Assembly: GCA_026414565.1 (NCBI GenBank)
Contig: JAOAIT010000027.1
Span: 1 to 64,000, forward strand
Source: Verrucomicrobiia bacterium
Lineage (GTDB): Bacteria; Verrucomicrobiota; Verrucomicrobiia; Limisphaerales; Fontisphaeraceae
Direction: 5' to 3'
Length of the DNA: 64,000 nucleotides
Shown: positions 2,668 to 18,344 of the stretch, piece by piece
How positions within the stretch are numbered: the stretch's first letter is position 1
How the letters are laid out: each line of letters starts with the position of its first letter
Notes under the pieces: generated by a model
Database searches by the model: none
What the model was told of the DNA's origin: nothing
Seen by the model: only the letters and a program-made list of their open reading frames with translations
Made by a program: the position numbers and the translations under genes

Positions 2668-5184
2668 ATGTCAGCCAAGCCGGCTTTTTTTGTTTTTTTC
2701 GGGATTTGCCTGCTGCCCCTTGGAATCAATGCCCAAATAAATCTTTCCAGAATTGCTGACTTCACCACCCCCGTCCCCCATGCCCCCGGCACAACCTTCA
2801 GAGAAATTGGCCAGCCCTTCCTCTACAACGGCCAGGTTCTCTTTTACGCCACCAATAATGCCGGCATGCCCGGCCTCTACCTCTACAACGGCAGTATGCT
2901 GGTGAAAATCGCCGACACCAACACCGCCTCGCCCGGCGGAGGCACGCTGCGGGACATCTCCTTCTATGCTTACTCGCTCGAAAACGGAGCGGCAGTGTTT
3001 GTGGCCTCCGACAACAACGGCCCCGCCATCTTCCACTGGACCAACCAAACCCTGACCCGCCTCGTAAAAAACGGCGACCCCATCCCCGGCGCCGGCACCA
3101 ATCGCTTTAACTTCTTCGGCTTGCCGGCCCTCGATCAGGGCGTGCTCTACTTCCTCGGAGGCGGAGCCGACAACTACCGCGGCATACATCGCCTGGTGAA
3201 CGGCGTGGTCAGCACCGGGCTGGTCAGCTCACTCGAGCTCTACCCCGGCACTGCCTCGCCGCACGGTTTCAGCGCCCAGTTCACCGTCGAAAGCAACCGC
3301 TTGGCGTTCTGGTCCTTAACCACCAATCAGAACGCCATCTTCACCTGGGCCAACGGCGTCAAAGACTTCCTCGTCTCGTCCAATCACACCATCCCCTCCA
3401 CCAGCGAGAAATTTTCCACCTTCCAAAGCCCGCCCGACCTCCACCTGGGCCTGGTGGCCTTCAAGGGAGGCTCGGCCGCCAACTTCCAGGAAGGCATCTT
3501 CCTGCGCCGCTTCGACGGCGGCGACATCGTCCCCGTGGTCCGCCGCGGCGATCCCCACCCCGGCTTCTCCGGCTCCCTTACCACCTTCAATGAAATGGCC
3601 GTGGACAACGGCCGCGTTTGGTTTCAGGCCGGCGGCATCGGCGGCCAAAGCCTCTTCCTCTGGCAGAGCAATCGCTACTCCCGCATCATTTCCAGCGGCA
3701 TGCGCCTTGACAGCACCCTCACCATCTCCTCCAGCGCCAGCTTCACCCTCAACCAAAACTGCGGTCACCAGGGCCTCCTGACCTTCGTCGCCCGCTTTTC
3801 CAACAACTCCAAGGCTCTCTATCTTGCCACCGAAACGCCCCCGCCCCCCTCCCGCCTTGCCCTCACCAACCTCGTCGGCACCAACACCCCCATCCCCGGC
3901 GGCTCCGGCAACTTCACCAGCGCTGACCGGCCCATGTTCTGGAGCGATGGCCTCGCCTTCATCGGCAACGGCGCCGGTGGGCAGTTCGGCGTTTACCTCT
4001 ATCGCAACGGCCAGTTTTCCGTCCTCCTCAACACCTCCCTGAATTTCCCCGGCAGCACCAACACCTTCGCCGCCTTCGACCTGCTCGCGGCCGACACCTC
4101 CCGCCTGGTTATCCGCGCCCTCGGCGCCGGCGGCGAATGGGGACTCTTCATCCACGACGGCTCCAGCCTCACCAAAGTCGTGGACCACAACACCCCCATC
4201 CCCGGCGGCGCTTTCGGCAACTTCACCACCGCCCCGCGCGCCCAGTTGGTTGGCCCCCACCTCACCTTCAGCGCTTCGGGCACCAACAACTTCACCGGCA
4301 TCTACGAGTTCAACGGCAACGCCATCAACCCCCTCCTCGACTCCACCTCCTTCTTCCCGGGCACTACCCAAAACCTGCGCATCCTCACTTTTGACCGCGC
4401 GGGCAGCCTCCTGAGCCTCATTGCCTACCCCGGCAACAACCCTTCCCAGATGGCCGTGCTCCTCGCCAGCAACCAGGTGCTCTCCCTCATCATCACCAAC
4501 AGCGCCACCATCCCCGACCGCACCAACCGCGTTTTCGCCAGCCTCAACACCGTGGCCTTCTACGGCGGCGACCTCTACTTCAGCGCCCAGGCCTCCGGCA
4601 CCGGCTTCTCCGGCAACTACCTCCTCAAAGTCCCCGCCGGCTCCCTCCTGCCCCAAACCGTGCTGGACGAAACCACCCTCTTCCCCGGCATCCCCGGCCA
4701 GGCCTCCCTCTCCGCTTTCGTCGTCGAGCCTTCAGGCCTTTACCTCAACGCCCTCAACGGCTCCCTGGTGGGCCTATACCGCTACACCCCCGGCGGCCTC
4801 GAACTCCTCTACCTCAACACCGCCCCCCAGGCGGGCGCCGCCATCCTCTCCATCTCCTTCAACCGCGGCAGCTTGAGCACCAACGGCTTGGCCTTCGGTG
4901 CCACCACCTCCCTCGGCCCCGTCCTTTACTACTCCCCTCCCGCCTCCACCGCCCCTGCCGGCGGCCGGTTCCTCCCCGGCAGCCTCGCCTACTCCCCCGG
5001 CGCCGGCTTCTGCCTCACCTTCGCCGACGCCACCCCCGGCGCGAACTACCGCCTGCAATACCGCACCCTCGAGCACGACGCCCTCTGGATCACCCTCACC
5101 AACTTCACCTACACCGCCCCTTACACCTACTGCGACCTCACCGCCACCAACCGGGCCCGCCTTTACCGCGTCCTCACCCCCTGA
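2668..5184 (+). CDS. Secreted repeat protein (beta-propeller-like repeats)
   Basis: 838 residues with a clear signal peptide (hydrophobic stretch, cleavage after about residue 22, NAQ-IN). The mature protein is a series of irregular repeats of roughly 50-60 residues that recur to ADTNT.SPGG, GDPIPGAGTNRFNFF, NTPIPGGSGNFT and NTPIPGGAFGNFT, each followed by YLYNG or YRNGQ strands. This resembles beta-propeller-type repeat proteins predicted in many Verrucomicrobiota. The C-terminal 50 residues (YRLQYR ... LYRVL) match a module seen at the ends of two other secreted proteins in this window. No catalytic motif is visible. Role unknown; probably cell-surface or extracellular. Confidence 0.85.
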   Translation: MSAKPAFFVFFGICLLPLGINAQINLSRIADFTTPVPHAPGTTFREIGQPFLYNGQVLFYATNNAGMPGLYLYNGSMLVKIADTNTASPGGGTLRDISFYAYSLENGAAVFVASDNNGPAIFHWTNQTLTRLVKNGDPIPGAGTNRFNFFGLPALDQGVLYFLGGGADNYRGIHRLVNGVVSTGLVSSLELYPGTASPHGFSAQFTVESNRLAFWSLTTNQNAIFTWANGVKDFLVSSNHTIPSTSEKFSTFQSPPDLHLGLVAFKGGSAANFQEGIFLRRFDGGDIVPVVRRGDPHPGFSGSLTTFNEMAVDNGRVWFQAGGIGGQSLFLWQSNRYSRIISSGMRLDSTLTISSSASFTLNQNCGHQGLLTFVARFSNNSKALYLATETPPPPSRLALTNLVGTNTPIPGGSGNFTSADRPMFWSDGLAFIGNGAGGQFGVYLYRNGQFSVLLNTSLNFPGSTNTFAAFDLLAADTSRLVIRALGAGGEWGLFIHDGSSLTKVVDHNTPIPGGAFGNFTTAPRAQLVGPHLTFSASGTNNFTGIYEFNGNAINPLLDSTSFFPGTTQNLRILTFDRAGSLLSLIAYPGNNPSQMAVLLASNQVLSLIITNSATIPDRTNRVFASLNTVAFYGGDLYFSAQASGTGFSGNYLLKVPAGSLLPQTVLDETTLFPGIPGQASLSAFVVEPSGLYLNALNGSLVGLYRYTPGGLELLYLNTAPQAGAAILSISFNRGSLSTNGLAFGATTSLGPVLYYSPPASTAPAGGRFLPGSLAYSPGAGFCLTFADATPGANYRLQYRTLEHDALWITLTNFTYTAPYTYCDLTATNRARLYRVLTP

Positions 5185-5220
5185 GCTGCCCGGGCCGCCC
5201 CACCAACCACAAAAACAAGC

Positions 5221-5248
5221 TTGCGCCGCGCGCGCGGGTGCATAAACT
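5221..5248 (+). promoter_or_regulatory. Weak candidate promoter for tRNA-Cys
   Basis: TTGCGC (5221-5226), a 16-nt spacer and TAAACT (5243-5248) lie about 40 nt before the mature tRNA. A short hairpin (GCACCC at 5262-5267 paired with GGGTGC at 5273-5278) sits in the leader. The match to consensus is only partial. Confidence 0.25.
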
Positions 5249-5285
5249 TGCCCCTCAGGACGCACCCCCTCCGGGTGCCCGGAAC

Positions 5286-5360
5286 GGCGGGGGAGCCAAG
5301 TGGTAAGGCAGAGCTCTGCAAAAGCTCCATTCGTCGGTTCGATTCCGACCCTCGCCTCCA
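5286..5360 (+). tRNA. tRNA-Cys (anticodon GCA)
   Basis: The sequence folds into a full cloverleaf. The acceptor GGCGGGG pairs with CCTCGCC through one G-U. The D arm is GCC/GGC, the anticodon stem GAGCT/AGCTC encloses the loop CTGCAAA with anticodon GCA, and the T stem GTCGG/CCGAC encloses TTCGATT. The CCA end is encoded (5358-5360). It lies between two secreted-protein genes, and the next ATG follows within about 12-30 nt. Confidence 0.95.
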
Positions 5361-5390
5361 AAACCGATACGCATGGTGTTCTCGCCGCCA

Positions 5391-6770
5391 ATGTCGCGCC
5401 CTTCCAACCGCCCCATTTGTCGCCCGGCCCTGCCCGCCCTCTTGGCGGCCTGCCTCGGGGCGGCCGCCGCCGCGGCAGACTCCACCGGCACCGTCCGGGT
5501 GGTGACCGCCTTCCCGGCCAACCGCGGCCCGGGGTGGAAGCAAACCATTGATGTGGCCGGCGCCGTCGGCCCCCGCCACGTGGTGGCCTTTGACGAGGGA
5601 GGATTCGTGGTGCAGGAAAAAGCCACCGGCCGCGAAGTCCAGCGGTTTGCGCCCCGCGAGTTCTGGCGCCGGGTGCAACCCGCCCACACCCTCGTGCCCC
5701 AGGCCGAGGCCAATGACCCGCGCATCCTCTATGACCCGCTCGCCGAGCGCTGGTATGCCTGCGCCGCCGGCACCACCGTGGCCGACTGTTTCCTGGCCGT
5801 CTCCACCAGCGCCGACCCCACCGGGCCGTGGAAGGGCGTTAAACTGCCCCTCCCGCCCATTGATCCCTACATGAAAATGGGGCTCGATAAACACGCGCTC
5901 TACATCTGCTCCTGCAACGGCGATCCCGACTGGCGCAAAGGCATGAACTGCTACGTCATCCCCAAGCAGGATGTCCTGGCGCCGGACGGCCCGCTGCTCC
6001 ACCGGGCGCAGACCTTCACCGGCTTGATCTTCGCCCTCATGCCCGCGCTGGATTTGGACCCCCGCAAACCCCCGGAGGCGCCCCACGCGCTGCTAATCAA
6101 TGAATTCAGCGAGGGCCTCTGCCGCCAATTGTTTCTCTACCGCCTCACCTGGTCCGCCGGCCGCGCCGCGCTGTCCGCCCCCCAAACCATTCCCCTCAGC
6201 CGCACCTATTACACCCCGGCGACCAACCTCGCCGTCCAGCCCGCGCCGGGCCCCCGCCTGCGCGCCGGCGGCGGCAACCGCCGCCTCGAGAGCGCCTTTG
6301 TTTTCCAGGGCAGCCTCTTCGGCTGCCACGGCGCCAAGCGCGCCCCGGATTCCCGCCCCGGCATCCTGTGGTATGAAATCCGCCTGCGCGACGGCGCGCT
6401 GCTCCAGGAGGGTTTCGTGGAAGATGCCCACAGCGACTATCTCCATCCCTCCCTGGCGGTGGACGCCCGGGGCAATCTGGGCCTGGGCTGCACCCGCACC
6501 TCCGAGACGGAATACCCCTCCGTCTATGTCCTGATGCGCGCGCCCACCGATCCGCCGCACACCCTGCGGCCTCCCGTCCTGGCCATGCGCGGCACCACCT
6601 GTTACCGCTACGGCGATTACCCCGCCATCAATTTGAGCCACTACAGCTCCACCTGTGTGGACCCGGTGGCGCCGGGCCGGCTGTGGACCTACCAGGCCTA
6701 CGGCAACAGTCCGGTGGACAAACAATGGTGCACCGCCTGGGCGGCCTTCGAACTGGCCGCCCCCGAATAA
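5391..6770 (+). CDS. Secreted hypothetical protein
   Basis: Starting at the ATG at 5391 gives 459 residues. An in-frame ATG at 5373, only 12 nt after the tRNA CCA, would add six residues. The N-terminus has a basic region then an alanine/leucine-rich hydrophobic stretch ending in AAAAAAD, a likely signal peptide. The mature protein has motifs such as NDPRILYDPLAERW, YICSCNGDPDW and a cysteine-containing C-terminal half. These resemble uncharacterised exported proteins, possibly a beta-propeller, with no recognised catalytic site. It has no good Shine-Dalgarno sequence and may be read through from the tRNA promoter. A GGCAG tandem repeat and a broken TetR gene follow it. Confidence 0.8.
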   Translation: MSRPSNRPICRPALPALLAACLGAAAAAADSTGTVRVVTAFPANRGPGWKQTIDVAGAVGPRHVVAFDEGGFVVQEKATGREVQRFAPREFWRRVQPAHTLVPQAEANDPRILYDPLAERWYACAAGTTVADCFLAVSTSADPTGPWKGVKLPLPPIDPYMKMGLDKHALYICSCNGDPDWRKGMNCYVIPKQDVLAPDGPLLHRAQTFTGLIFALMPALDLDPRKPPEAPHALLINEFSEGLCRQLFLYRLTWSAGRAALSAPQTIPLSRTYYTPATNLAVQPAPGPRLRAGGGNRRLESAFVFQGSLFGCHGAKRAPDSRPGILWYEIRLRDGALLQEGFVEDAHSDYLHPSLAVDARGNLGLGCTRTSETEYPSVYVLMRAPTDPPHTLRPPVLAMRGTTCYRYGDYPAINLSHYSSTCVDPVAPGRLWTYQAYGNSPVDKQWCTAWAAFELAAPE

Positions 6771-6793
6771 CCCCGCCCCGCAGGACGGGGCAC

Positions 6794-6813
6794 GGCAGGG
6801 CAGGGCAGGGCAG
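6794..6813 (+). repeat. Short tandem repeat, four copies of GGCAG
   Basis: Four perfect head-to-tail GGCAG pentamers lie directly downstream of the secreted-protein gene and just before the degraded TetR/permease remnants that mark the island edge. Such tracts are prone to slippage; no function is apparent. Confidence 0.8.
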
Positions 6814-6849
6814 GGGGCCTGCCTCTGCGGGAAGAAAAACCAAAATAAG

Positions 6850-7047
6850 ATGACCCATATTCCCAGATACGCCCTACATACGTAGGACTCGACGCCGCCG
6901 AGCGGCTGCTGGCCGAACGCGGGGTGGATGCAGTGTCCTTCCGCGACATCACCGCCGCGGCAGGCGCCAACCTGGAAGCCATCAATTATCACTTCAGCAG
7001 CAAAGACCGGCTGCCAGAAGCCGTCTTCGAGCGGGGGCTAGGGCCCA
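6850..7047 (+). pseudogene. TetR-family regulator remnant (frameshifted and truncated)
   Basis: An ATG at 6850 opens MTHIPRYALHT followed by a stop. A different frame then continues with LDAAERLLAERGVDAV and SFRDITAAAGANLEAINYHF, the helix-turn-helix of a TetR regulator ending in SSKDRLPEAVFERGLGP. So the gene has a frameshift near 6880 and lacks its whole ligand-binding domain. The coding match stops at about 7047, where it joins directly to the tail of an ABC-transporter permease. TetR regulators often head efflux operons of this kind, so an internal deletion probably removed the rest of such an operon. Confidence 0.8.
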
Positions 7048-7092
7048 GCGCGGCTGCCCGCCTGGACCCCATCGAAGCCCTCCGCCATAATA
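7048..7092 (+). pseudogene. ABC transporter permease (MacB/FtsX-like) C-terminal remnant, copy 1
   Basis: About 15 codons reading SAAARLDPIEALRH match the highly conserved end of MacB-type permeases (AARLDPIEALR). Bases 7056-7087 are identical, 32 of 32, to 13259-13290, where the longer copy of the same tail lies before the fucosidase gene. This copy is fused in frame to the TetR remnant and marks the left edge of the island. Confidence 0.7.
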
Positions 7093-7113
7093 ATTCGGCG
7101 GGGAGGACGGCAC

Positions 7114-8874
7114 CTAGCGCAGTTTTTTATGCACCCAACGCCATTGCGTGTAGGCCCGCTCCATGCATTTGCTGAAAGCGGCATTGGTGCGCAGAAACGC
7201 AAAATTGCCCTCCGCCACGCGGTCACGGTATTCCTTGCAGTCAATCAACCAGCTCATCAGCATCCGACACCGAGCAGTCGCCAGGTAACTGAGCCTGGCA
7301 ACATAATCCGCCTCCACACTCAGGCTCGTTCCATATTTCTCGGCCAAATCGGGGAGGTTGGATTCATTGAGCACTCCCTGGCATAGCAGCGCCCACAACA
7401 GCCCGCGGGCGCGGCTGATGTAGCTGTAACGGTTGGGTCCTTTTTCGACAATGTCGCTCATCAGGCGGCGGAGGCGGTAATGGATCTTGTAGCAGAGCAC
7501 GATGTGCCGGGTGTCAGCCCGCAGGCGTGCCTCGTTGAAAGCCAGGTTGTAGATGCGATCTTCCTCAAAGACCTCGGAAATGCTGTTGGTTTTGTCCACC
7601 TCGCCATCGGTGACGAGAAAGGTTTGCGCCAGCAAGCGGATTTGAATGGGCTTGCTTTCCGTGATGCCTTCGTCATCGAGATCATCCAAAGCTTCAAACG
7701 CGTTTTCCTGGCGCTCGTAAAAGATGCCCAAATCTTCTTTGAATTTCTCCTGCAACTGAAGCTGAATCATGTCATTGGCTCGCAGGTTCCATGGTTCGAC
7801 CGGATTCTGCCGGTTGTTGTTGATGGTGACGCCCGTAATAAAATCGGCGGTGGCCTTGGTGATGATTTTACACAGCACGCGCACTTCTTCCATGGCCGCC
7901 TGCCGTTGCTTAAGCAGAGGGTTCTCAACATTGTTCCTCATGAAATCATCGAAAGTGGTCACGGTTTGAGCGCCGTTAAGCAGGCGGGGAGAGGTAATAT
8001 GGCACTGCCCGTCCAGCTTTTCCAACTGCTCGGCGGCAAGCGTGATGCCGTTGTGGTTGAAGGCAAAAATCAACGGGGATTCGCCATCCATCGCAATTTG
8101 CTTGAAGGCGCGCATGAGTGCCCGGTTGACCGAGCGGTTCAGCCCCAGCCCATAACGGATGTTGCGTTCAAAAAAACGCGCTCCCATGTCGCGGTACATC
8201 GCATGCAGGTCCGTCAGACGTATAAACCCCACAAACATCTGCTCACCTCCGGGGCCGGGACGTTCGATCAAATCTGTGATAGGGATTTGATACACCCGCG
8301 CATGGGTGTGGTCTTCCACTGCGCCGATTTTGCCGGTAACCGAACGGAACTCGACCAGAAAACTGACCTGTCGGCCCTCGAAAAACTTGTCAATAAGGTA
8401 TTTTTTGTTTTCCAAATCCTCGCGGAGATGATCAAGCAACGGGCTTTTGTCGGCTTCTGCGGGATCCCCAAGATAAATAAATCGCAGGCACACCTGCTTG
8501 ATGGCTTCTCGGTTCTCCAGCATGCAACTGCGAAGTTGCAGGAGTATCTGATTCTTGGCGGGATTTGCTTTTTGCGGGTTAAGAAAGATCACCTCCATCC
8601 CCTCATCAATCAATCGTTGCATGGAGGCTTTGAATTGCGCGTGCGATTTGGTGTATTTAAACTGAAACAAATAGAGGTTCTTTCTTTCGGGATCAAAGTG
8701 GAATCCGTCCACCCCGTAATCATTTCCCCCAAAAGCCACCTGATTCAGGGCCTGCTCACGCGGCACCTTGTAATCACGCTCTAGCACCAGGAGCCCGAAG
8801 TAGTCTTCACGTCTCCCTCCGCAAGTGCTCTTCAGGTCGGAATAGGTTTGATCGAGCATCTTTTCGGTGATCAT
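7114..8874 (-). CDS. AIPR-family abortive infection protein with PD-(D/E)XK-like N-terminus
   Basis: 586 residues. The central region has the AIPR signature: FFERNIRYGLG at 234-244, FAFNHNGIT at 270-278 and SPRLLNGAQTVTT at 295-307. The N-terminus contains GGNDYGVDGFHFD followed by LYLFQFKY, where Asp56 and the Gln71-Phe-Lys73 triad fit a Mrr/PD-(D/E)XK nuclease core. AIPR proteins are linked to phage resistance and to restriction-modification loci. AGGA seven nt before the ATG supports the start at 8874. It is divergent from the RT-nitrilase gene and shares the 550-bp intergenic region with it. A DNA- or RNA-cleaving effector role is inferred from the fold, not shown. Confidence 0.85.
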   Translation of the reverse strand: MITEKMLDQTYSDLKSTCGGRREDYFGLLVLERDYKVPREQALNQVAFGGNDYGVDGFHFDPERKNLYLFQFKYTKSHAQFKASMQRLIDEGMEVIFLNPQKANPAKNQILLQLRSCMLENREAIKQVCLRFIYLGDPAEADKSPLLDHLREDLENKKYLIDKFFEGRQVSFLVEFRSVTGKIGAVEDHTHARVYQIPITDLIERPGPGGEQMFVGFIRLTDLHAMYRDMGARFFERNIRYGLGLNRSVNRALMRAFKQIAMDGESPLIFAFNHNGITLAAEQLEKLDGQCHITSPRLLNGAQTVTTFDDFMRNNVENPLLKQRQAAMEEVRVLCKIITKATADFITGVTINNNRQNPVEPWNLRANDMIQLQLQEKFKEDLGIFYERQENAFEALDDLDDEGITESKPIQIRLLAQTFLVTDGEVDKTNSISEVFEEDRIYNLAFNEARLRADTRHIVLCYKIHYRLRRLMSDIVEKGPNRYSYISRARGLLWALLCQGVLNESNLPDLAEKYGTSLSVEADYVARLSYLATARCRMLMSWLIDCKEYRDRVAEGNFAFLRTNAAFSKCMERAYTQWRWVHKKLR

Positions 8875-9113
8875 TCAGCAATCCTTTCTAGTTCCTCCCC
8901 CACATGGTTATGCAAGCTTTGCTGCGTCCCGAACATCCAGGAACCGGGCCAGGGCTTGGCCATGCCCCGCTTGGCTTTGCGGCCATGCCGGCGTAGCTTG
9001 CAGTCTGGTGGGTTGCACATGGGTTCATCGGCCCAACGCTGCACAGCAGCCAATGGGTAGTTTAGTGTGGCGCATTATCTAATGTAGCCTTGGTGGGGTC
9101 AAGTCCGTCAATT
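8875..9113. other. Intergenic region between AIPR gene and duplicated fucosidase 5' region
   Basis: About 240 bases with no convincing gene. It must contain the AIPR promoter on the minus strand and the breakpoint with the fucosidase-derived repeat. Short similar units GGCTTGGCCATGCC and GGCTTTGCGGCCATGCC occur near 8955-8995. I see no RNA gene. Confidence 0.5.
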
Positions 9114-9232
9114 TCCCCCCGCCGCGCCCCTGCATTCCCCCCGGCGCATCGCCCGCTTGCCCCCGGCGGCGCAGGCGCGTAAGATGCCGGCATGATCTAC
9201 CGCACGCTCCTCCCGCTCGTCCTCGCGCTGGC
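9114..9232 (+). repeat. 119-bp direct repeat, copy A (fucosidase upstream region and first codons)
   Basis: Aligned base by base with 13313-13431, offset 4199, this segment differs at one position only (GCAGGCGCG versus GCACGCGCG). It includes the spacer, the putative ribosome-binding region and codons 1-13 of the alpha-L-fucosidase gene. The low divergence implies a recent duplication or ongoing gene conversion. Confidence 0.95.
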
Positions 9233-9419
9233 TTGCATAGCATGGCACTTGGACTCATTTGCGCGAGACTGTCTAGTTGATGCGAATGGCGGACGCCGAA
9301 TGGTGTGCCGGGCGGACGTTTGCGTTCTCGGAGGGAATCCAGTCCCACCCAATTCGTCTCATCCCACCGCCTGTTGGTCCCCGCGTGGCGGCATACGCCA
9401 CGTCCGGCAACTTGAATAA
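9192..9419 (+). pseudogene. Chimeric ORF: duplicated fucosidase start fused to unrelated sequence
   Basis: The ORF starts at the copied fucosidase ATG (MIYRTLLPLVLALA, its signal-peptide core). It leaves the repeat at 9232 and continues for about 60 unrelated codons to a TAA at 9417-9419. That stop is 5 nt before the ATG of the RT-nitrilase gene. The peptide is probably a by-product, but its translation could couple ribosomes into the RT gene, which lacks its own Shine-Dalgarno sequence. Confidence 0.6.
9384..9402 (+). promoter_or_regulatory. Perfect hairpin just upstream of the RT gene
   Basis: CGTGGCG (9384-9390) and CGCCACG (9396-9402) form a 7-bp perfect stem with the loop GCATA, 22 nt before the RT start codon. 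It could be a translational control element or part of an RT-associated structured RNA. It has no T-tract and so is unlikely to be a terminator. Confidence 0.45.
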
Positions 9420-9424
9420 GATTT

Positions 9425-12400
9425 ATGTCCTGGGAAGACCCTAACTTCATCACCCTGTCCGACCTCTATTTGGCCTACCGGAAGGCCAAAGTTGACGTGT
9501 ATTACGAAAAGGTTAACATCGCCGGAGTCCCCTTTTGCAAATACGAGGTCAATCTGGATCGCAATCTCCGTTCCCTCCTCAAACAGTTGAGTTCCGACCG
9601 GCCGGCTTGGATGACTAACACCAACTTTATCGGTTCACACTCTTACATTCCGAAATCCATTGAACCAGACCCAAGACTTATGGCGGACACGAGCTGTCCT
9701 CACTTTTTCAGCTCCGACGCGGACAAGCGGTGGGACTGGTGGTGCCAACAGAACAAAGATAAGCCGGAGGCCTCATTCCGTTTAGTCGGCCAACACCCAG
9801 TGGACTTCCACATCGTTTCGACCCTCTGGATTATGAAGGTGGGCCAATATTACGATGCCTGCCTAGGGGTGGAGGCAAAAGGTTCACGCCTTCGGCGCTA
9901 TACGGAAGTCGAGAATGACCTGCCGCCTGATCGAATACCGGAATTGAATCCGTATGCAACAGGTTGTTTTCGCCCATATGCGGTGGATTACAAAAACTGG
10001 CGGTCTAGCGGCCTGGCTGCTATTCGTAAGTCTTTGGAAAACAAAGAGTCGGTTGTCGCCATCACAATGGACATCCGGCAGTTCTATCACCGGGTTTGCC
10101 CTGAGTTTCTGCTTGATCCTGATTTTCTGGATGAGGCGAAACTGAAACTTTCCGCGGACCAGAAGACTTTCACCCGTCAAATGATCACAGCCTTGGCAAC
10201 CTGGGCGCAGTCATCTGGACAGCCTGAAACCAGCCAGCGCCCCATTGGGCTGCCGGTTGGCCTGACAGCCTCGAAAGTTATCGCCAACGTCGCGCTCCTG
10301 GCTTTCGACCGTGCCGTTAAGCGAGAGCTCAGCCCAATCTACTATGGGCGTTACGTGGACGACGTGTTTCTAGTCATCCGGGACACCGGGGAATTTTCAT
10401 CAAGTTCCGCTTTGGGTCAGTTCATCGTCGATCGTCTCAGGGGTCTGCTCCGGAAGGCTGATACGGGAAACTCTTACCGGTTCGTGCCTGTGTATGACAA
10501 AGAACGCAGCCTTATGGAGTTTGCGGAGGCCAAACAGAAGATGTTTTTGCTGTCCGGGCAGGCTGGACTCGATTTGCTGGATGGCATCGAGCAGCAGGTG
10601 AACGATGCGTCCAGCGAATGGCGGATGCTCGCGGATTTACCGGACGATGAAGGTGAATTGCTAAAAAACATTTTGTGCCCCGGTCGAGACGCCAGTGCTG
10701 CCGTGGACAATCTCCGCAAAGCCGACGGTGTCAGCGTTCGCCGATTGGAGTTTTCTCTCGTGCTGCGGAATTTGGAAGCCATTGAGCGCGACTTGCCCCC
10801 GAGCGCCTGGAAGAAACAGCGGAAGGCTTTCTTCGACGTGGTTTTCAACCATATTCTCACAATTCCGGGGGTGTTTGATTTCTTTCCATTTTTGACCCGC
10901 CTCCTTGGATTGTCGGTCGCCTGCGGGGAATTCGACATCGCCGTAAAACTGGTTCGCAGGTTCCAGCAGGTCATGAGGCACATGAAGCAAACGACGCGCT
11001 TTGAACCGACTAATGCGGTTGCTTCCTGCCTTGAATACACAGCACGCGCTTTTGCCTTGAGCGTACTTCAAGCTCTTGGCCCGTCTCCGAACGTCAAAAA
11101 AAGCCTCTGGCGTTTGTGGAAGGCACTGGATGCACTGGCGGACGGCCGACTGGCGATGACCAAAAGCGAGATTTCATCTGCAGCATTTCAACTCTGGCTT
11201 CATGATCTTGGGAGGCAGAGCTACCGGGAGAGCCTCATGAAGCGCGGCACCCTTGCCGCGCAGGCCCGCGTAAAGTTCCCGCCAATTAAAATTGATGTAG
11301 TGGCGAAACGGAAACTGCGCGTCGCTGAAATCGAGGCATTTATTGAGGCTGCGCAACCCTTGTTGAAGCGCACTCCATTCCTGGGGGCCTTGGTATTCCC
11401 CACCCGCCCATTCTCCCCTGCCGAGATCACACAACTCATCCCCGAATCGCTTAATAAACCGCAAATATTGTGGCGGTTCGTGAAGGCGTTGAGGGGGCTG
11501 GCCATCAGTCCACCGCCTGGCAATGGCACGGGCCAGAAAACCATTCAGGGTGACCGCCCAATCCGCTTGCCAGTTGAAAACGCACCTGCAAAACCGCTCG
11601 TTGCTTTGCCTTGCCTGCTGACCCACTTGGGAAGCTGGAGGGCATCCGTTCGCGGTCAGATCGACCCTGACAAAAGAAGGTATTTTAGGATCAACCGGTT
11701 GGTTAACGATATTTTGCGACACCCCAAGAAGCCCCACTACATTATTTTTCCAGAGCTGTCCATTCCTAGGAACTGGTTTGGGCGGATTGCCTATAAGCTG
11801 GCCAAGAGTGGGATTTCAGTAATCGCCGGACTTGAGTATGAGCACCACGGCCATAGCCTCGTCTCGAATCAGGTGTGGGCCTCCCTCGTGACCGACGTTC
11901 TGGGATACCGCTCGAGCGTCATATACTGGCAAGAAAAAGAGGAAGCCGCTCTGCACGAAGAAAGAGAGTTGTGGCAGCAGGCCCGTCTGCGGCTCGCTCC
12001 AATGGGGGCGATTCAGAAGCCTGTGATTCAACATGGGCTCTGTGCTTTTGGCCTTCTGGTGTGCAGCGAGCTTACGGACATGCAGAACCGGTTGCGTTTC
12101 CGTGGGAATGTTGACGCCATCTTCGTCGCCGAGTGGAATCAAGATACCAAGACGTTTGCGTCTTTGGTCGAGGCTGCCGCCTTGGATGTCCATTGCTACG
12201 TAGTTCAGGTCAACAATCGTGCCTACGGTGATTGCCGCATCAGAGCGCCAGCAAAAGAGGATCACAACCGGGACCTGGTGCGCCTCAAGGGGGGGGTAAC
12301 CGACTACTTTGTTGTTGGTGAATTGGATGTGCCCGCATTGCGAGAGTTTCAGTCACAGGCGCGGTCACCTGATAAACCTTTTAAGCCGGTGCCTTCCGGG

Positions 12401-12448
12401 TTTGAATTGGCGCCTTTTCGTCAAAGTCCCCCGTCATTGAATGGGTAA
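9425..12448 (+). CDS. Defence-associated reverse transcriptase with C-terminal nitrilase domain (DRT1/UG1-like)
   Basis: 1007 residues. The N-terminal third is a reverse transcriptase: motif A TMDIRQFYH with Asp216, motif B RPIGLPVGLTAS from about 272, and catalytic YVDD at 310-313. A helical region of about 370 residues follows. The C-terminal part is a carbon-nitrogen hydrolase (nitrilase) domain with catalytic glutamate Glu777 in FPELSIP and nucleophile Cys880 in LLVCSELTD; Lys865 is a possible third catalytic residue. This order matches class 1 UG reverse transcriptases, whose member DRT type 1 protects against phages. The gene is divergent from an AIPR gene and has no Shine-Dalgarno sequence; its start is 5 nt after a chimeric ORF. 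Codon and base composition differ from the GC-rich neighbours, consistent with transfer. Product and target of either active site are unknown. Confidence 0.9.
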   Translation: MSWEDPNFITLSDLYLAYRKAKVDVYYEKVNIAGVPFCKYEVNLDRNLRSLLKQLSSDRPAWMTNTNFIGSHSYIPKSIEPDPRLMADTSCPHFFSSDADKRWDWWCQQNKDKPEASFRLVGQHPVDFHIVSTLWIMKVGQYYDACLGVEAKGSRLRRYTEVENDLPPDRIPELNPYATGCFRPYAVDYKNWRSSGLAAIRKSLENKESVVAITMDIRQFYHRVCPEFLLDPDFLDEAKLKLSADQKTFTRQMITALATWAQSSGQPETSQRPIGLPVGLTASKVIANVALLAFDRAVKRELSPIYYGRYVDDVFLVIRDTGEFSSSSALGQFIVDRLRGLLRKADTGNSYRFVPVYDKERSLMEFAEAKQKMFLLSGQAGLDLLDGIEQQVNDASSEWRMLADLPDDEGELLKNILCPGRDASAAVDNLRKADGVSVRRLEFSLVLRNLEAIERDLPPSAWKKQRKAFFDVVFNHILTIPGVFDFFPFLTRLLGLSVACGEFDIAVKLVRRFQQVMRHMKQTTRFEPTNAVASCLEYTARAFALSVLQALGPSPNVKKSLWRLWKALDALADGRLAMTKSEISSAAFQLWLHDLGRQSYRESLMKRGTLAAQARVKFPPIKIDVVAKRKLRVAEIEAFIEAAQPLLKRTPFLGALVFPTRPFSPAEITQLIPESLNKPQILWRFVKALRGLAISPPPGNGTGQKTIQGDRPIRLPVENAPAKPLVALPCLLTHLGSWRASVRGQIDPDKRRYFRINRLVNDILRHPKKPHYIIFPELSIPRNWFGRIAYKLAKSGISVIAGLEYEHHGHSLVSNQVWASLVTDVLGYRSSVIYWQEKEEAALHEERELWQQARLRLAPMGAIQKPVIQHGLCAFGLLVCSELTDMQNRLRFRGNVDAIFVAEWNQDTKTFASLVEAAALDVHCYVVQVNNRAYGDCRIRAPAKEDHNRDLVRLKGGVTDYFVVGELDVPALREFQSQARSPDKPFKPVPSGFELAPFRQSPPSLNG

Positions 12449-12570
12449 AATACAAGAACAGGCATTGCGAATCCTCATTGAAACAGTGATAAACGCCCCA
12501 AAGTCGTAGTCAAGACTTCTCGCAACGGGCGCTTGGATGCCTGGATTCGACACTACTTTTGAGCAAAGCT

Positions 12571-12861
12571 TCAATCTTTTTCTTCTAGCGGGAAAATAGG
12601 CCTAAATAATTGAGTCGCCATTGCATCAAGGACGGTCTCAGTACTGCTCGGAAACAACGGGTTAAGGAAGGCCACATCGAGGACAGCCCACGAATTGAAC
12701 AGCAAGCGCAGGACGTTGGCGACACATGAGACATTACCCACACAATTACAAGGCGATGCTTCTGAAGTTAAATAGAAGCTCATCCAAACCCTAAGGCAAG
12801 CCGTAGCGGCCGCCTTCAGCGCAAAATACAAGGCCGCTCCAGGGGTAAAGATGCGGCTCAT
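12571..12861 (-). CDS. Doubtful small hypothetical ORF
   Basis: A 96-codon frame with an ATG and two hydrophobic stretches (around NVLRLLFNSWAVLDVAFLNP). It has no clear ribosome-binding site and matches no family I recognise. It may be a decayed or chance frame in the island. Confidence 0.2.
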   Translation of the reverse strand: MSRIFTPGAALYFALKAAATACLRVWMSFYLTSEASPCNCVGNVSCVANVLRLLFNSWAVLDVAFLNPLFPSSTETVLDAMATQLFRPIFPLEEKD

Positions 12862-12876
12862 TGCGGAATCCGTGGC

Positions 12877-13026
12877 ATGAATAATAATGAGTTTTCCGCC
12901 AAAGCACCGGCCACTCCAGCCAGCGCCATGGCTCTGCTTCTAGATGTTGTGATAGATCGGCTACTTGACAAGGGACCGATCATCGCATTTGACAACCCAA
13001 ATCAAGGCACCTACAGCTCTTACTGA
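12877..13026 (+). CDS. Doubtful 49-residue hypothetical ORF
   Basis: ATG AAT AAT AAT opens a frame that contains MALLLDVVIDRLLDKGPI and ends at TGA 13024-13026. A weak GGA lies about 9 nt upstream. It is amphipathic-helix-like in the middle. Its small size and unknown family leave it uncertain. It is divergent from the 12571-12861 frame. Confidence 0.2.
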   Translation: MNNNEFSAKAPATPASAMALLLDVVIDRLLDKGPIIAFDNPNQGTYSSY

Positions 13027-13055
13027 AAGCACCTGGGAAGGAGCATCAACGAGAT

Positions 13056-13085
13056 TGATGAAGGCGCAAAGCCTTCAGGTCATCA
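13056..13085 (+). other. Stem-loop in the 3' intergenic region of the RT gene
   Basis: TGAAGGC (13059-13065) and GCCTTCA (13071-13077) form a perfect 7-bp stem with the loop GCAAA. The stem can extend through TGA/TCA after a short bulge. No T-run follows, so a terminator is less likely than a structured RNA element. Confidence 0.4.
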
Positions 13086-13207
13086 GGCTTAATGATAGAG
13101 GCTCCGTATGGACGGGCCATTCCGCTCTTCGAGATTGCCCCTTGTAGTTTCCTTGCCCCGTTCAACCGGGTCATCTTAAATTAAAGTCAGCGCAAGAATT
13201 GGGTTAA

Positions 13208-13297
13208 CCTCCTGCCGCCGTGGGCGTGATCTTCGGCTTCGTCCCGGCCTGCAAAGCCGCCCGCCTGGACCCCATCGAAGCCCTCCGCCAAGAATAA
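13208..13297 (+). pseudogene. ABC transporter permease (MacB/FtsX-like) C-terminal remnant, copy 2
   Basis: After an in-frame stop (13205-13207), 29 codons read PAAVGVIFGFVPACKAARLD and PIEALRQE, then TAA. This is the last transmembrane segment and conserved end of a MacB-type permease. The rest of the gene is absent, cut off at the right edge of the island. It appears to keep the native junction with the fucosidase gene 93 nt downstream. Confidence 0.75.
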
Positions 13298-13312
13298 TCC
13301 ACGGGCGGCCCG

Positions 13313-13431
13313 TCCCCCCGCCGCGCCCCTGCATTCCCCCCGGCGCATCGCCCGCTTGCCCCCGGCGGCGCACGCGCGTAAGATGCCGGCATGATCTACC
13401 GCACGCTCCTCCCGCTCGTCCTCGCGCTGGC
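13313..13431 (+). repeat. 119-bp direct repeat, copy B (native fucosidase 5' region)
   Basis: The counterpart of 9114-9232, with a single mismatch. Here the repeat continues into the intact fucosidase gene, so this is taken as the original copy. Confidence 0.95.
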
Positions 13432-15178
13432 CGGGACACTGGCCGCGCAAACCCCCACCAAAGATTTCCGTCAGGAAACCCCCGCCGAGCGCGACGCCCG
13501 CATGGCCTGGTTCCGCGAGGCCCGCTTCGGCATGTTCATCCACTGGGGCGTTTACGCCGTGCCCGCCGGCGAATGGCAGGGCAAAACCCACTACGGCGAA
13601 TGGTTTCTGGAGGAAACCAAAATGCCGGTCTCCCAGTACGAGCAATTCGCGCAGCAGTTCAACCCCGTGAAATTCGACGCCCGCCAATGGGTCCGCATGG
13701 CCAAAGAGGCCGGCATGCGCTACCTCGTCATCACCAGCAAGCACCACGACGGCTTCGGCCTCTTTCGCTCCGAGCTTACCGACTGGTGCATCAAGCGCAC
13801 CCCCTTCCCGCGCGATCCGCTGCAGGAACTGGCCGCGGCCTGCAAAGACGCGGGCCTCGTGCTCTGCTTCTACTATTCCATCATGGACTGGCACCACCCC
13901 GACTGGGGCACGCGCCGCAAATATCATGACCTCGCCACCGGCACGCCCGACATGGACCGCTACGTGGCCTTCATGAAAGGCCAGCTCAAGGAACTCCTCA
14001 CCCGCTACGGCCCCATCGGCATCTTGTGGTTCGACGGCGAATGGGAAAGCCCCTGGACCCACGAGCGCGGCGTGGACCTTTACAACTACGTGCGCAGCCT
14101 GCAACCCCGCATCATCGTCAACAACCGCGTCGGCAAGGGCCGCGCCGGCATGAGCGGCATGGACCAGGGCCAGGGCGTCGGCGATTACGGCACCCCCGAG
14201 CAGGAAATCCCCCCCACCGGCTTCGGCCCCGGCGTGGACTGGGAATCGTGCATGACCATGAACAACCATTGGGGCTACAACAAACACGATCAAAACTGGA
14301 AATCCACCCGCACCCTCCTCCGCAACCTGATTGACTGCGCCAGCAAAGGCGGCAACTACCTCCTCAACATCGGCCCCACCGCCGAGGGCACCTTCCCGGA
14401 ACCCTGCGTGCAACGCCTCGCCGAGATGGGCGCCTGGATGAAGCTCAACGGCGAGGCCATTTACGGCACCACCGCCAGCCCCTTCAAAAAACTCCCCTGG
14501 GGCCGCTGCACCCAAAAACCCGGCAAGCTCTACCTGCACGTCTTCGACTGGCCCAACGACGGCCGCCTGCTGGTGCCCCTCGCCAATCAAGTCACCCGCG
14601 CCTACCTCCTGGCCCACCGCCAAACCGCCCTGGCCGTCGCCCCCGGCCCGGCAGACACCGGCGGCCTGCTGGTGAGCGTGCCCGCCGCCGCACCCGATCC
14701 CCACGCCTCGGTCGTGGTGCTCGAAATCACCGGCCCGCCGCAGGTCACCGCCCTGGCCCCTCCCCTCACCCAGGCGGCCGACGGCACCCTCACCCTGAAA
14801 GCCGACGACGCCGAAATTGTCGGCCGCACCGCCCGGCTCGAGACCAAGGCCGGCGGCGTGCCCAACATCGGCTTTTGGACCAACCCCCAGGACCGCGTGG
14901 AATGGACGGCCAAAATCACCCGGCCCGGCGCCTTCGCCGTCGAGCTGCACTACGCCTGCGCCCCCAACAACGGCGGCCAGTTCGCCCTCACCGCCGGCAA
15001 CCAAAAACTGGAGGCCACCGTCGCGCCCACCCAGGATTGGACCGATTTTGTCACCACCCGCATCGGCCGCCTCACCCTCGAAACCGCCGGCCCCGTCACC
15101 TTCACCCTCCAGCCCCTCAAAAAACAGGGCCAAGCCCTCATGAACCTCCGCGCCGTCAAACTCATCCCCCTCCCCTAA
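13391..15178 (+). CDS. Secreted alpha-L-fucosidase (GH29)
   Basis: 595 residues. The signal peptide (about residues 1-18, LPLVLALAGTLAAQ) directs export. The GH29 catalytic domain spans about 30-370: ARFGMFIHWGVYAVPAGEW, the ITSKHHDGFGLF substrate motif, YYSIMDWHHPDW, and the nucleophile Asp215 in ILWFDGEW. The enzyme releases alpha-L-fucose from glycans such as algal fucoidan fragments or mucin-type chains. The C-terminal about 120 residues (from about 475) look like a carbohydrate-binding beta-sandwich. The gene's 5' end is the source of the duplicated repeat at 9114. It is convergent with the PQQ-repeat protein. Confidence 0.95.
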   Translation: MIYRTLLPLVLALAGTLAAQTPTKDFRQETPAERDARMAWFREARFGMFIHWGVYAVPAGEWQGKTHYGEWFLEETKMPVSQYEQFAQQFNPVKFDARQWVRMAKEAGMRYLVITSKHHDGFGLFRSELTDWCIKRTPFPRDPLQELAAACKDAGLVLCFYYSIMDWHHPDWGTRRKYHDLATGTPDMDRYVAFMKGQLKELLTRYGPIGILWFDGEWESPWTHERGVDLYNYVRSLQPRIIVNNRVGKGRAGMSGMDQGQGVGDYGTPEQEIPPTGFGPGVDWESCMTMNNHWGYNKHDQNWKSTRTLLRNLIDCASKGGNYLLNIGPTAEGTFPEPCVQRLAEMGAWMKLNGEAIYGTTASPFKKLPWGRCTQKPGKLYLHVFDWPNDGRLLVPLANQVTRAYLLAHRQTALAVAPGPADTGGLLVSVPAAAPDPHASVVVLEITGPPQVTALAPPLTQAADGTLTLKADDAEIVGRTARLETKAGGVPNIGFWTNPQDRVEWTAKITRPGAFAVELHYACAPNNGGQFALTAGNQKLEATVAPTQDWTDFVTTRIGRLTLETAGPVTFTLQPLKKQGQALMNLRAVKLIPLP

Positions 15179-15248
15179 CCCCCCCGAGCGGGCAAAGGTA
15201 CGGCAGGCATCACGCCGATCCAACGCCAGTTGCCCCTTCGGGCCGGCG

Positions 15249-16598
15249 TTACTTCGCCTGGATGTCGTAGCAGTAGAGCGTCTCCTGATCCCGGAGGTAG
15301 AGCTTGCCGTTGGCAATCACCGGATGCGCCCACGCCGGCAGCCGCGTGCGGTCCGGCTGCTCAAAACGCCCGCGCTCGCGGTACTCTTTGGCATTCGGCT
15401 CAATCAACAGCACCGTGCCGCGCTCGGTGCGGTAGTAGATGCGGCCGTCCGCATAGGCCACCGACCCTTTGGGGGCGGGGCGCTCCGGCAGATCGCGCGC
15501 ATCCCACAGCACCTCACCGGTTTTGAAGTTCAAACAGGCCAGGTAACCGCCCTCGTTGCCGCCGTTGGCCCCGTACAGGCAGCCGTCCAGCACCACCATG
15601 CCGCCATGATGATTTTGCATCCGCCGGGTGAAATACACTTCTTCGGCCGTCCAGTTGCCGGCGGCATCTTTGCTCAGTTTCACCGCCCCGCCGCCGGCGC
15701 CGTAAGCGGAGGCGGCGAAGACCAGCCCGTCCTGGTAAATGGGCGTGGAGCAGTTGATGCCCATGCCGTTGGCCGGCTTGTCATAGCGCCACAGCAGTTT
15801 GCCGTCCGCCGCCGCCACGCCAATCACGCCCCGCGCGGTGAACTGCACATACTGCCGCTGGCCCTCCACCTCAATGGCAATGGCCGAGGCATAGGCCGCC
15901 CCCCCGCCGCCCATGCCGCCCCGCCGCCCGCCGCCCGGGCCGGGCGGGCCGCCCTCCGCCGGCGGGGGATTGGTGCTCTGGGGCACCGTGGTTTTCCAGA
16001 GCGTTTCGCCCGTCATTTTGTTGAGCGCCACCAGCATGGCGTCCGGCGCGCCGGGCGTGACGATGACTTTGTCGCCATCCACCAGCGGGGACTCACGATA
16101 GCTCCACGCCGGCACGCGCCCGCCAAAATCGCGCGTGAGGCTGCGCTGCCAGAGGATTTTGCCGTCGCTGGTTTGCAGGCAGGCCACCTCGCCCCCCAGG
16201 CCCACCACATACAGCCGGTTGCCGTCCACCGTGGGGGTGCAGGCGGGGCCTTCGCGGCTCTGGGTCATCCGCTGATTGTACGCCGGGCCCAGGCGGGCCG
16301 CCCAGATTTCCTTGCCGTCCTTTTCGTTCAACGCCCAGACCACCTCGTCCTCGCCGCGGTTGGCCATGCCGTAGATGCGGCCGGCCGCAACGGAGGGGGT
16401 GCTGTCGCCCCCGCCCAGGCCGGTGGCTTTCCAGGCCAGCGGCGGGCCCTCCTTGGGCCATTCTTTGAGCAGGCCGGTTTCCTTGGAGAGATTGTTGCGC
16501 TGGGGACCCTGCCATTGCGGCCAGTCCTCGGCGCCGACAAAACTGGCGCAGGCCGCGGCGGTAAGCAGAGCCAGGAGGGACGACGAATAATGCATCAT
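15249..16598 (-). CDS. Exported PQQ-binding-like beta-propeller protein
   Basis: Starting at the ATG at 16598 gives about 449 residues with a signal peptide ending near SFVGAED. The longer frame to 16646 adds 16 residues upstream and lacks better support. The mature start [12 protein letters not shown] and repeated strands such as [37 protein letters not shown] and [11 protein letters not shown] are blades of a PQQ-type eight-bladed propeller, as in BamB-like proteins. There is a glycine-rich loop (about [14 protein letters not shown]) in the middle. No heme or PQQ-dehydrogenase catalytic motif is seen. It is likely a periplasmic scaffold or binding protein, common in Planctomycetes and Verrucomicrobia. 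Confidence 0.88.
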
Positions 16599-16802
16599 GA
16601 GATTCACCAGGTTAATAGCCGATGGCACACCCGGCCATCGTGACACCGCCCTAGACGCCCAAACCGCCGGATTGGTTACAGCCTAACGCCAGGGCCGCCG
16701 GCCGGCCGGCTTGGGCCGCGCGGGGCAGGGGATCCGGGCGGGGGGGCGGGGCCTTGGGCATTGTCACTCCCCGCTCCCGCGTCTATATTGCGGCGACTGC
16801 TT

Positions 16803-18344
16803 ATGCAAACTGCCTGCAAACTCGGGTCGCTCGCGGCCCTGTTGTGGCTCCTGCCCGCCGCGGCGCAACAGGTGCCGGTCATCGAAAAAACGCTCAGCAA
16901 CGGCATGCGCCTGCTCATGGTGGTGCGGACGGACGAGCCGACCATCGCCGGCGGCTGGGTGGCGCACGTGGGCAGCGCCAACGAGCGCCCCGGCATCACG
17001 GGCATCGCGCATCTCTTCGAGCACATGATGTTCAAGGGCACGCCCACCATCGGCACCAAAGACCCCGAAAAAGACCGCCAGATCATGGCCGAGCAGGACC
17101 GCATCCGGGAGGCCATGCGCGTCGAGGAGGCCCGCGTGCGCGCCGCCTTCCGCCGGGGCGAGATTGACGACTGGCAGAAGCCGGAGCACCAAACCCCCCG
17201 CTGGCGCGAGTTGAACCAGCGTTTCCAGGAGCTTATCCGCCAGCAACGCGAGCTGCTGGTGAAAAATGAATTTGACCGCATCTACACCGCCCAGGGCGGC
17301 TCCGGCATGAACGCCTTTACCAGCAAGGACTTGACCGCCTATTTCATCACCGTCCCCGCCAACAAACTCGAGCTCTGGATGTGGATGGAATCCGAGCGCC
17401 TCTACCGCCCGGTGTTTCGCGAGTTTTACGCCGAGCGCGATGTCGTCTATGAGGAGCGCCGCCTCCGCGTGGAAGCCACCCCGCTCGGCAAATTTGAGGA
17501 GGCCTTCGAAGCCATGGTCTGGAAGGCCCACCCCTATCACTGGCCGGTCATCGGCTGGCCCTCGGATGTCGCCTCCATCTCCAAGGCCGAGGCCGACGCC
17601 TTCTATGCCACCTACTACGCCCCCCAAAACCTCACCGCCATCCTCGTCGGCGACTTCCAGCCCGACACCGCCCTCGCGCTGGCCGAGCGGTATTTCGGGC
17701 GCATCCCCCGCGGCCCCCAGCCGGCCCCGGAGGTCATCACCCTCGAGCCCCCCCAGCCGGCGGAGCAGCGCCTCCTGGCCGAGGCCGACACCAACCCCCG
17801 CGTGGACGTGGTCTGGCAGAGCGTGCCCTTCCAGCATCGCGACAGCTACGCCCTCCAGGTGCTGGCCCAGGTGCTCAACGGCCGCACCGGCCGGCTCTAC
17901 AAACGCCTGGTCCTCGAGCGCCAGCTCGCCACCAGTGCCCAGGCCGCCCAGGACTCCATGAAGTGGGGCGGTTTGTTCGGCCTCAGCGCCGAAGTCCGCG
18001 AGCCGCGCACCCCCGCCGAGCTGGAGCAGGCCCTCTACGAGGTCCTGGACGAATTGAAAACCCGCCAGGTGCCGGCGGACGAGCTGCAGAAGGTCAAAAA
18101 CAACTTCGCCGCCGCCGAGTATCGCAAACTGACCTCCAACACCGCCATCTTGTTCCAGTTGATCTTCAATGACGGCCTGGGCGACTGGCGCGAAATCAAC
18201 GAAGCCGGAGCCAAGATTCAGGCCGTCACCGCCGCCGACATCCAGCGCGTGGCGCAAAAATACCTCACGCGCGAAAACCGCACCGTGGCCCTGTACCATC
18301 GCAAGGCCGCGCCGGCGGCGGCCGCCACCGCGGCGGTGAAATAA
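16803..18344 (+). CDS. M16 family zinc metallopeptidase (catalytic subunit)
   Basis: About 513 residues from the ATG at 16803. A TTG-initiated frame from 16761 would spoil the signal peptide. The signal sequence ends around AAAQQ. The inverted zinc motif HLFEH (His70, Glu73, His74) lies in the first domain. Unusually, about 95 residues rich in Arg, Glu and Gln separate it from the region where the third ligand is expected (VVYEERRLRVE). The C-terminal domain has the usual NNFAAAEYRKL region. The peptidase probably degrades or processes peptides in the periplasm. It is followed 26 nt later by a second M16 gene. Confidence 0.92.
   Translation: MQTACKLGSLAALLWLLPAAAQQVPVIEKTLSNGMRLLMVVRTDEPTIAGGWVAHVGSANERPGITGIAHLFEHMMFKGTPTIGTKDPEKDRQIMAEQDRIREAMRVEEARVRAAFRRGEIDDWQKPEHQTPRWRELNQRFQELIRQQRELLVKNEFDRIYTAQGGSGMNAFTSKDLTAYFITVPANKLELWMWMESERLYRPVFREFYAERDVVYEERRLRVEATPLGKFEEAFEAMVWKAHPYHWPVIGWPSDVASISKAEADAFYATYYAPQNLTAILVGDFQPDTALALAERYFGRIPRGPQPAPEVITLEPPQPAEQRLLAEADTNPRVDVVWQSVPFQHRDSYALQVLAQVLNGRTGRLYKRLVLERQLATSAQAAQDSMKWGGLFGLSAEVREPRTPAELEQALYEVLDELKTRQVPADELQKVKNNFAAAEYRKLTSNTAILFQLIFNDGLGDWREINEAGAKIQAVTAADIQRVAQKYLTRENRTVALYHRKAAPAAAATAAVK

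Follow-up and report, generated by a model that had tools for sequence, protein, structure and literature searches.

A divergent UG5 reverse transcriptase-nitrilase of a Verrucomicrobiia bacterium, with an invariant candidate priming serine and a C-terminal tail partly resembling that of DRT1

The window analyzed here comprises the first 64,000 nucleotides of contig JAOAIT010000027.1 of a Verrucomicrobiia bacterium (assembly GCA_026414565.1). On its plus strand, at 9425..12448, it contains a gene for a protein of 1,007 amino acids (aa) that joins a reverse transcriptase (RT) and a nitrilase in one chain. Judged by profile matches, this protein is an intact, divergent UG5-nitrilase, a member of an already known family of class 3 defense-associated reverse transcriptases (DRTs). 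The best explanation of its role, which we regard as fairly probable, is abortive infection by a mechanism like that of DRT1. This explanation is supported by a full-length match to the UG5-nitrilase profile, the invariance of both active sites, the nitrilase fold, an RT similar to those of DRT and Abi proteins, the C-terminal tail, and the spacing of an invariant serine.

Family assignment and domain structure

The open reading frame (ORF) is translated without a stop and matches the PADLOC model RT_UG5-nitrilase (PDLC03780) almost from end to end (903 bits; E value, 6.9e-272; residues 5 to 1002; profile positions 20 to 899 of 907), whereas the runner-up PADLOC model reached 154.6 bits. The first-pass annotation, made from the letters alone, had likened the protein to DRT1 and called its architecture class 1. 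However, the Drt1a model gave only a partial match of 103 bits, with its best stretch at residues 179 to 379, whereas a true DRT1 scores 1,440.8 bits, and this comparison rules out DRT1 membership. RT-nitrilase fusions, DRT1 included, are placed in class 3 (PMC13275509). The Pfam matches, RVT_1 (29.5 bits; cutoff, 29.6) and CN_hydrolase (17 bits; cutoff, 23.2), were both below the curated cutoffs, so a generic annotation could miss this protein.

The protein could in principle be a mobile-element RT, from a group II intron or a retron, that became joined to a hydrolase by chance and has no role in defense. Weak matches to the models retron_St85 (31.9 bits) and TIGR04416 (23.7 bits) would fit that origin, but they are far below the cutoffs of 235 and 300 bits, respectively, which rules out both a retron and a group II intron RT. 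A search for noncoding RNA with Rfam over positions 5000 to 17000 matched only a tRNA and no msr/msd RNA, and chance fusion is ruled out by the full-length UG5 match together with the many fused relatives. We therefore consider a mobile-element origin extremely improbable, and the profile scores agree with the first-pass view of a DRT/UG-type fusion that is neither a retron nor a group II intron RT.

In a tree of 90 RT regions, 8 DRT1 sequences were separated from 82 UG5-nitrilase and UG5_small sequences with support of 100/100; the rows included no retron or group II RTs, families that the profile scores exclude. The window RT formed a long branch (0.8) that paired only with a very long Chryseolinea branch (95/86) and stood apart from three Verrucomicrobiota rows. 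Because of these long branches, its exact position in the tree is unsure. In the phylum sample, 8 of 387 genomes, the window's own included, matched the UG5-nitrilase model. Three of the eight (G274, G286, and G328) have a two-gene form with overlapping ORFs, an RT of ~650 aa, UG5_small by profile, followed by a nitrilase of ~311 aa; the matches in two others (G376 and G377) are partial. A protein search of 58 related genomes at 1e-10 gave a match only in the window's own genome, and no close DNA relatives were found.

The RT core spans approximately residues 150 to 400 (9872..10624; like all features of this gene, on the plus strand) and contains the catalytic D216 (10070-10072) and the YVDD motif at residues 310 to 313 (10352-10363). 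It is followed by a helical region at about residues 409 to 690 (10649..11494), as judged from the secondary structure of the model described below. The nitrilase (CN hydrolase) domain at residues 719 to 994 (11579..12406) is supported by Pfam, structure matching, and alignment and carries the tetrad E777 (11753-11755), K838 (11936-11938), E845 (11957-11959), and C880 (12062-12064). We aligned 79 fused UG5-nitrilases, including that of the window, which fall into 35 greedy clusters at 60% identity and have a minimum pairwise identity of 0.27 and a median of 0.32. Of the 43 invariant columns, three hold the RT residues D216, D312, and D313, and Y310 is present in 78 of the 79 sequences. The Glu-Lys-Glu-Cys tetrad is likewise invariant (79/79). 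Thus, the intact RT (D216 and YVDD) and the apparently intact nitrilase site (E777 and C880) that the first-pass annotation had placed in one polypeptide were found at those positions, and the nitrilase site is fuller than it had recorded. Residue 937, which is flanked by the conserved D936 and R938, is a cysteine in the window protein and a serine in 74 of the 79 sequences.

An AlphaFold2 model was built from a 52-row alignment of sequences chosen from the relatives' loci with ATG starts, and it had a mean predicted local distance difference test (pLDDT) score of 88.8 and a predicted template modeling (pTM) score of 0.92. In this model residues 719 to 994 adopt the nitrilase fold that had been expected of the C-terminal domain. 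The best match by VIA-align among solved amidases and nitrilases was to amidase 4kzf (Z score, 23.5; 240 residues; root mean square deviation, 3.0 Å). The VIA-align matches listed were of the nitrilase family throughout, and the absence of RTs from that list carries no meaning. Foldseek matched the model to the RT chains of DRT9, DRT6, DRT4, AbiA, and AbiK as well as to nitrilase-family amidases; the DRT1 structure (PDB 9YFD) was not among its matches in a structure library reaching to April 2026. The region between the domains was indeed helical, as the first-pass annotation had stated, but its length was nearer 320 than the proposed ~370 residues.

Candidate priming serine, C-terminal tail, and a possible mechanism

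The window protein contains 67 serines, of which only S397 (10613..10615, +) occupies an invariant column of the 79-row alignment, and this residue is our candidate for the priming of DNA synthesis. It lies 27 residues behind the thumb lysine K370 in all 79 UG5-nitrilases. In the UG5_small proteins, a set drawn from four genomes from which the partial gene of G376 was excluded, the distance from the lysine paired with K370 by hhalign to the serine was also 27 in 3 of 3 cases. In eight DRT1 proteins, we took the serine assigned to the position of DRT1 S402 and counted back to the closest K-T; the distance was 27 in three, 25 in two, 29 in two, and 28 in one. The register of S402 was taken from PDB entry 9YFD, where it lies in EVGTSS, matching T401, S402, and S403 of the published work (PMC13275509). 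The UG5_small serine was aligned on S397 in all 16 joint alignments, each of which included 31 of the 79 UG5 sequences. In the AlphaFold2 model, S397 is located near the C-terminal end of a helix (residues 378 to 400), ahead of a stretch with pLDDT values below 50 (residues 421 to 432); in DRT1, residues 382 to 478 are not resolved in the structure (PMC13275509).

Several observations weigh against an exact equivalence of S397 and S402. Only the S402 of 9YFD is mapped by experiment, the serines of the eight DRT1 proteins having been assigned from one alignment, and a separate alignment of six DRT1 proteins placed the S402 equivalent two columns off. The DRT1 serine fell exactly on S397 in 4 of the 16 joint alignments; it was within 6 columns in 15 of them and 10 columns away in the other. 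The local profile-profile match between UG5 and DRT1 (probability, 99.06) ends ~10 residues past the thumb lysine, before S397 is reached. A model of the DRT1 fragment was poor (pLDDT, 43.9), with a helix at residues 387 to 399 and the serine at 401 below a pLDDT of 50, and it was not used as evidence. Furthermore, S402 has been stated not to be conserved in other class 3 DRTs (PMC13275509). The sequence comparisons point to S397 as the residue on which DNA synthesis may start and as a possible equivalent of DRT1 S402. The partial texts returned by a literature search contained no proposal of such priming in UG5-nitrilases.

The second feature recalling DRT1 is the tail motif KPVPSGF (residues 987 to 993; 12383..12403, +). 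An alignment by phmmer of residues 878 to 993 to DRT1 residues 1114 to 1225 placed it opposite DRT1 1219 to 1225, pairing K987 with K1219, P990 with P1222, G992 with G1224, and F993 with F1225. The tail is strongly conserved among the 79 UG5-nitrilases: K987 and P990 are invariant, P988 is present in 78, G992 in 76, and F993 in 72, the remaining 7 having a tyrosine there. In the two-gene forms, the C terminus of the separate nitrilase reads FK/YK-x-T-P-P-G/D-F. Among the eight DRT1 proteins, six have the tail K-T-x-P-A-G, that of G376 reads K-A-R-P-A-G, and that of Sphingobium reads K-Y-P-P-A-G. In DRT1, the substitutions K1219A and A1223F cause a defect equal to that of C-terminal deletions (PMC13275509). 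Two points count against the correspondence: the posterior confidence of phmmer is low where K987 to F993 meet K1219 to F1225, and A1223, one of the two key residues of the DRT1 tail, is not conserved, being replaced by S991 in the window protein. The alignments suggest that the lid motif of the DRT1 C terminus is partly conserved in UG5-nitrilases.

DRT1 synthesizes template-free DNA primed on S402, forms tetramers and dormant filaments with swapped C termini that serve as nitrilase lids, and acts by abortive infection; its assembly is DNA dependent (PMC13275509). The 2026 paper describes the substrate of the DRT1 nitrilase as unknown, as the first-pass annotation had said for the family (PMC13275509). 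By analogy, the RT of the UG5-nitrilase would make short template-free DNA starting on one of its own residues, most likely S397, and the covalently attached DNA would help the protein to assemble through its nitrilase domains. The C-terminal tail would act as a lid that keeps the nitrilase pocket of a neighboring subunit shut. Phage infection would disturb this assembly, after which the nitrilase could act on some amide or nitrile and the infected cell would stop growing or die. The analysis establishes the family membership, the completeness of both active sites, the nitrilase fold, the conserved tail motif, and the single invariant serine; we infer the activities, the assembly, the trigger, and the outcome.

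Published work adds support to the DRT1-like mechanism. Purified DRT5S and DRT5L, which we read from their names as UG5 proteins, carry out template-free, protein-primed synthesis with covalently bound DNA (PMC13275509). A UG5 RT that carries a nitrilase at its C terminus and is accompanied by a transmembrane (TM) effector is reported among the validated anti-phage systems of P4-like satellites (PMC9122126). The distance of the nearest aligned relative (44% identity in the RT region) weighs against this mechanism, as does the TM partner of the published system, since no convincing TM gene adjoins the RT-nitrilase gene of the window. An invariant serine and an invariant tail lysine in 79 proteins as little as 27% identical give the UG5 branch a testable mechanism, and both residues can be mutated in the Escherichia coli homologue, found for example on plasmid NZ_CP146678.1, in which the serine belongs to an SSEH motif.

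A broader proposal, which we offer tentatively and with more doubt than confidence, is that serine priming is ancestral in the nitrilase-bearing class 3 RTs. S397 and its UG5_small counterpart would then be true equivalents of DRT1 S402, which would contradict what has been published on the conservation of that serine. Serine-linked DNA and the C-terminal lid would keep the nitrilases of the whole group dormant, including those in separate-gene or BREX-operon forms.

Genomic context and loci of relatives

The RT-nitrilase gene has a divergent neighbor, a 586-aa AIPR/AbiU-like gene (7114..8874, -; Pfam AIPR, 6.9e-20; PADLOC AbiU, 1.5e-26), at a distance of 551 bp. Part of the AIPR N terminus (DYGVDGFHFD...LYLFQFKY) resembles by eye what we take to be a PD-(D/E)XK nuclease motif. 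Both genes are located in one low-GC segment framed by repeats, the GC content being 0.49 to 0.57 over most of the 7.2- to 13.2-kb region and 0.63 to 0.71 outside. A short repeat, which by eye is like the tail of a permease gene, marks the left edge of this segment (7053..7102, +), and a second copy (50 bp; 84%) marks the right edge (13256..13305, +). In addition, a 119-bp direct repeat is present as a left copy that is a truncated duplicate of a fucosidase gene start (9114..9232, +) and as a right copy (99%; 13313..13431, +) that straddles position 13391, where the alpha-L-fucosidase gene begins; no third copy was found in a search of the genome. The left copy lies in a GC-richer patch (0.585 to 0.597) between the AIPR and RT genes.

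A genome of the same genus is collinear with the window as far as tRNA-Cys(GCA) (5286..5360, +), after which it has ~1.2 kb before the fucosidase gene, compared with 8.0 kb in the window, and it lacks the low-GC segment with the AIPR and RT genes. The low GC content, the repeats, and the difference in interval length suggest that these two genes were probably acquired behind the tRNA gene, perhaps in steps. General profile scans found no integrase among the scanned ORFs of this interval. The interval also contains a 465-aa ORF (5373-6770, +) with a host-like high GC content; it had no Pfam, NCBIfam, or PADLOC match at 0.01 and no match in genomes G001 and G002. The same-genus genome has extra ORFs of its own (L121, reverse complement, 14946-16820) before it realigns at window position 15249, which makes this region appear variable.

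By eye, an apparent truncated TetR-like gene start (6880-7102) leads into a permease-like tail on the left border of the low-GC segment. Such gene remains at the insertion site, together with the cysteine at residue 937, could indicate that the RT-nitrilase is a decaying, inactive passenger of the acquired segment. However, the open frame, the intact catalytic residues, and the confident AlphaFold2 model make this very unlikely.

The relatives considered here are the best 80 of 531, obtained from 586 candidate stretches, so that the counts describe the closer relatives. Of the loci L017 to L101, two with ~40-residue matches (L100 and L101), four in which the frame ends early (L051, L059, L091, and L093), and one encoding 853 aa at 23% identity (L099) are outside all counts; four truncated genes (L072, L083, L085, and L086) are absent from the 79-row alignment but count in the neighborhood figures. 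BREX genes (BrxC, PglZ, or BrxL) were present at 14 of 81 loci (L017, L018, L031, L033, L039, L040, L044, L045, L047, L054, L061, L084, L087, and L094). Restriction-type methylase matches (PglX, HsdM/S, or Eco57I type) were found at 14 further loci, and neither was seen at 53, some of which have short flanks. The matches at 28 of the 81 loci support a role in defense. At L017, the PADLOC order is BrxC, PglX, the RT, PglZ, and BrxL, and the RT stop codon overlaps the PglZ start; a same-strand coding neighbor at -8 to +10 nucleotides (nt) on at least one side was seen at 22 loci. Overlaps of RT genes with their neighbors in several BREX-bearing loci suggest translational coupling with BREX. The tight gene order with BREX genes also raises the question of whether the nitrilase is coupled to the breakdown of a restriction-type system. 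A literature search combining BREX, reverse transcriptase, and nitrilase revealed no described link in the partial texts that it returned.

The E. coli homologue was present at ≥99% identity in 253 of 5,426 complete E. coli genomes, the match covering 80% of the gene in 252 of these. In two records examined, it was located between AbiE genes and tRNA-Thr; an ash gene and the remnant of an integrase are present there as well. In one E. coli genome (L126, 3001-5824), the gene is split by an IS5-like element, and another record has two features annotated under the match, an RT and a carbon-nitrogen hydrolase.

One alternative is that AIPR and the RT-nitrilase form a two-gene defense system, in which the RT-nitrilase would sense phage or make a signal and AIPR would be the effector, or the reverse. 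The divergent arrangement in one repeat-framed segment fits this idea, and AIPR/AbiU is itself a phage-resistance family. However, the GC-richer 119-bp repeat between the genes suggests stepwise insertion, and the 28 loci with BREX or methylase matches have those instead. Moreover, a tblastn search (E value, 1e-3) with the window AIPR against the fetched loci of relatives, with flanks of up to 8 to 10 kb, returned only its own sequence, remote AIPRs not having been searched by profile. The pairing with AIPR pointed out in the first-pass annotation is real as a neighborhood in the window, but tblastn did not find it at the relatives' loci. As far as can be seen, the link is one of proximity or shared acquisition, and we consider a two-gene system quite unlikely.

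Similarly, a membrane effector might be controlled by the DNA product, with the nitrilase being regulatory, as in a UG5 system with a protein of one TM segment. An RT-nitrilase with such a partner is described as an active system (PMC9122126), and a simple ORF caller found a TM-like ORF of 60 to 350 aa on the same strand within 400 nt downstream at at least 4 of 80 loci. However, the gap ORFs listed for the window scored at most 1.48 in a 19-residue hydropathy scan, except for 1.79 for the duplicated fucosidase start (9192-9419). The next annotated gene beside the E. coli plasmid homologue scored 1.14, and DRT1 gives protection even when its TM partner is absent (PMC13275509). We regard this arrangement as unlikely for the window.

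Comparison with known systems

The RT fold of the window model is shared with AbiK, AbiA, DRT4, and DRT6, whose matched chains are 494 to 600 residues long and are not known to carry a nitrilase. UG5_small with its separate nitrilase (PADLOC PDLC03781) has a homologous RT with a serine aligned on S397; its nitrilase is also homologous and ends in a similar tail, and the two ORFs overlap. However, it consists of two genes rather than one, and its RT is on a long branch.

DRT1 (UG1; PDB 9YFD) likewise combines the RT and nitrilase in one chain with a Glu/Cys site, a similar tail, and a serine similarly spaced behind the thumb lysine. In contrast, the window protein belongs to a separate clade (100/100), matches Drt1a only partially, is 222 residues shorter than the 1,229-residue DRT1 chain, and has no TM partner seen beside it.

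The plasmid-encoded members of the RT_UG5-nitrilase family share the order of RT, helical region, and nitrilase with the window protein along its whole length; the tblastn alignments, which cover 99% of the query, show identities of 37.0% for Sinorhizobium meliloti and 33.1% for E. coli. Within this family, the window protein is a deep, lone branch, as its best RT-region identity of 44% indicates. Its gene lies beside AIPR behind tRNA-Cys, whereas BREX or methylase matches accompany 28 of 81 relatives and the E. coli copies examined are found between AbiE and tRNA-Thr.

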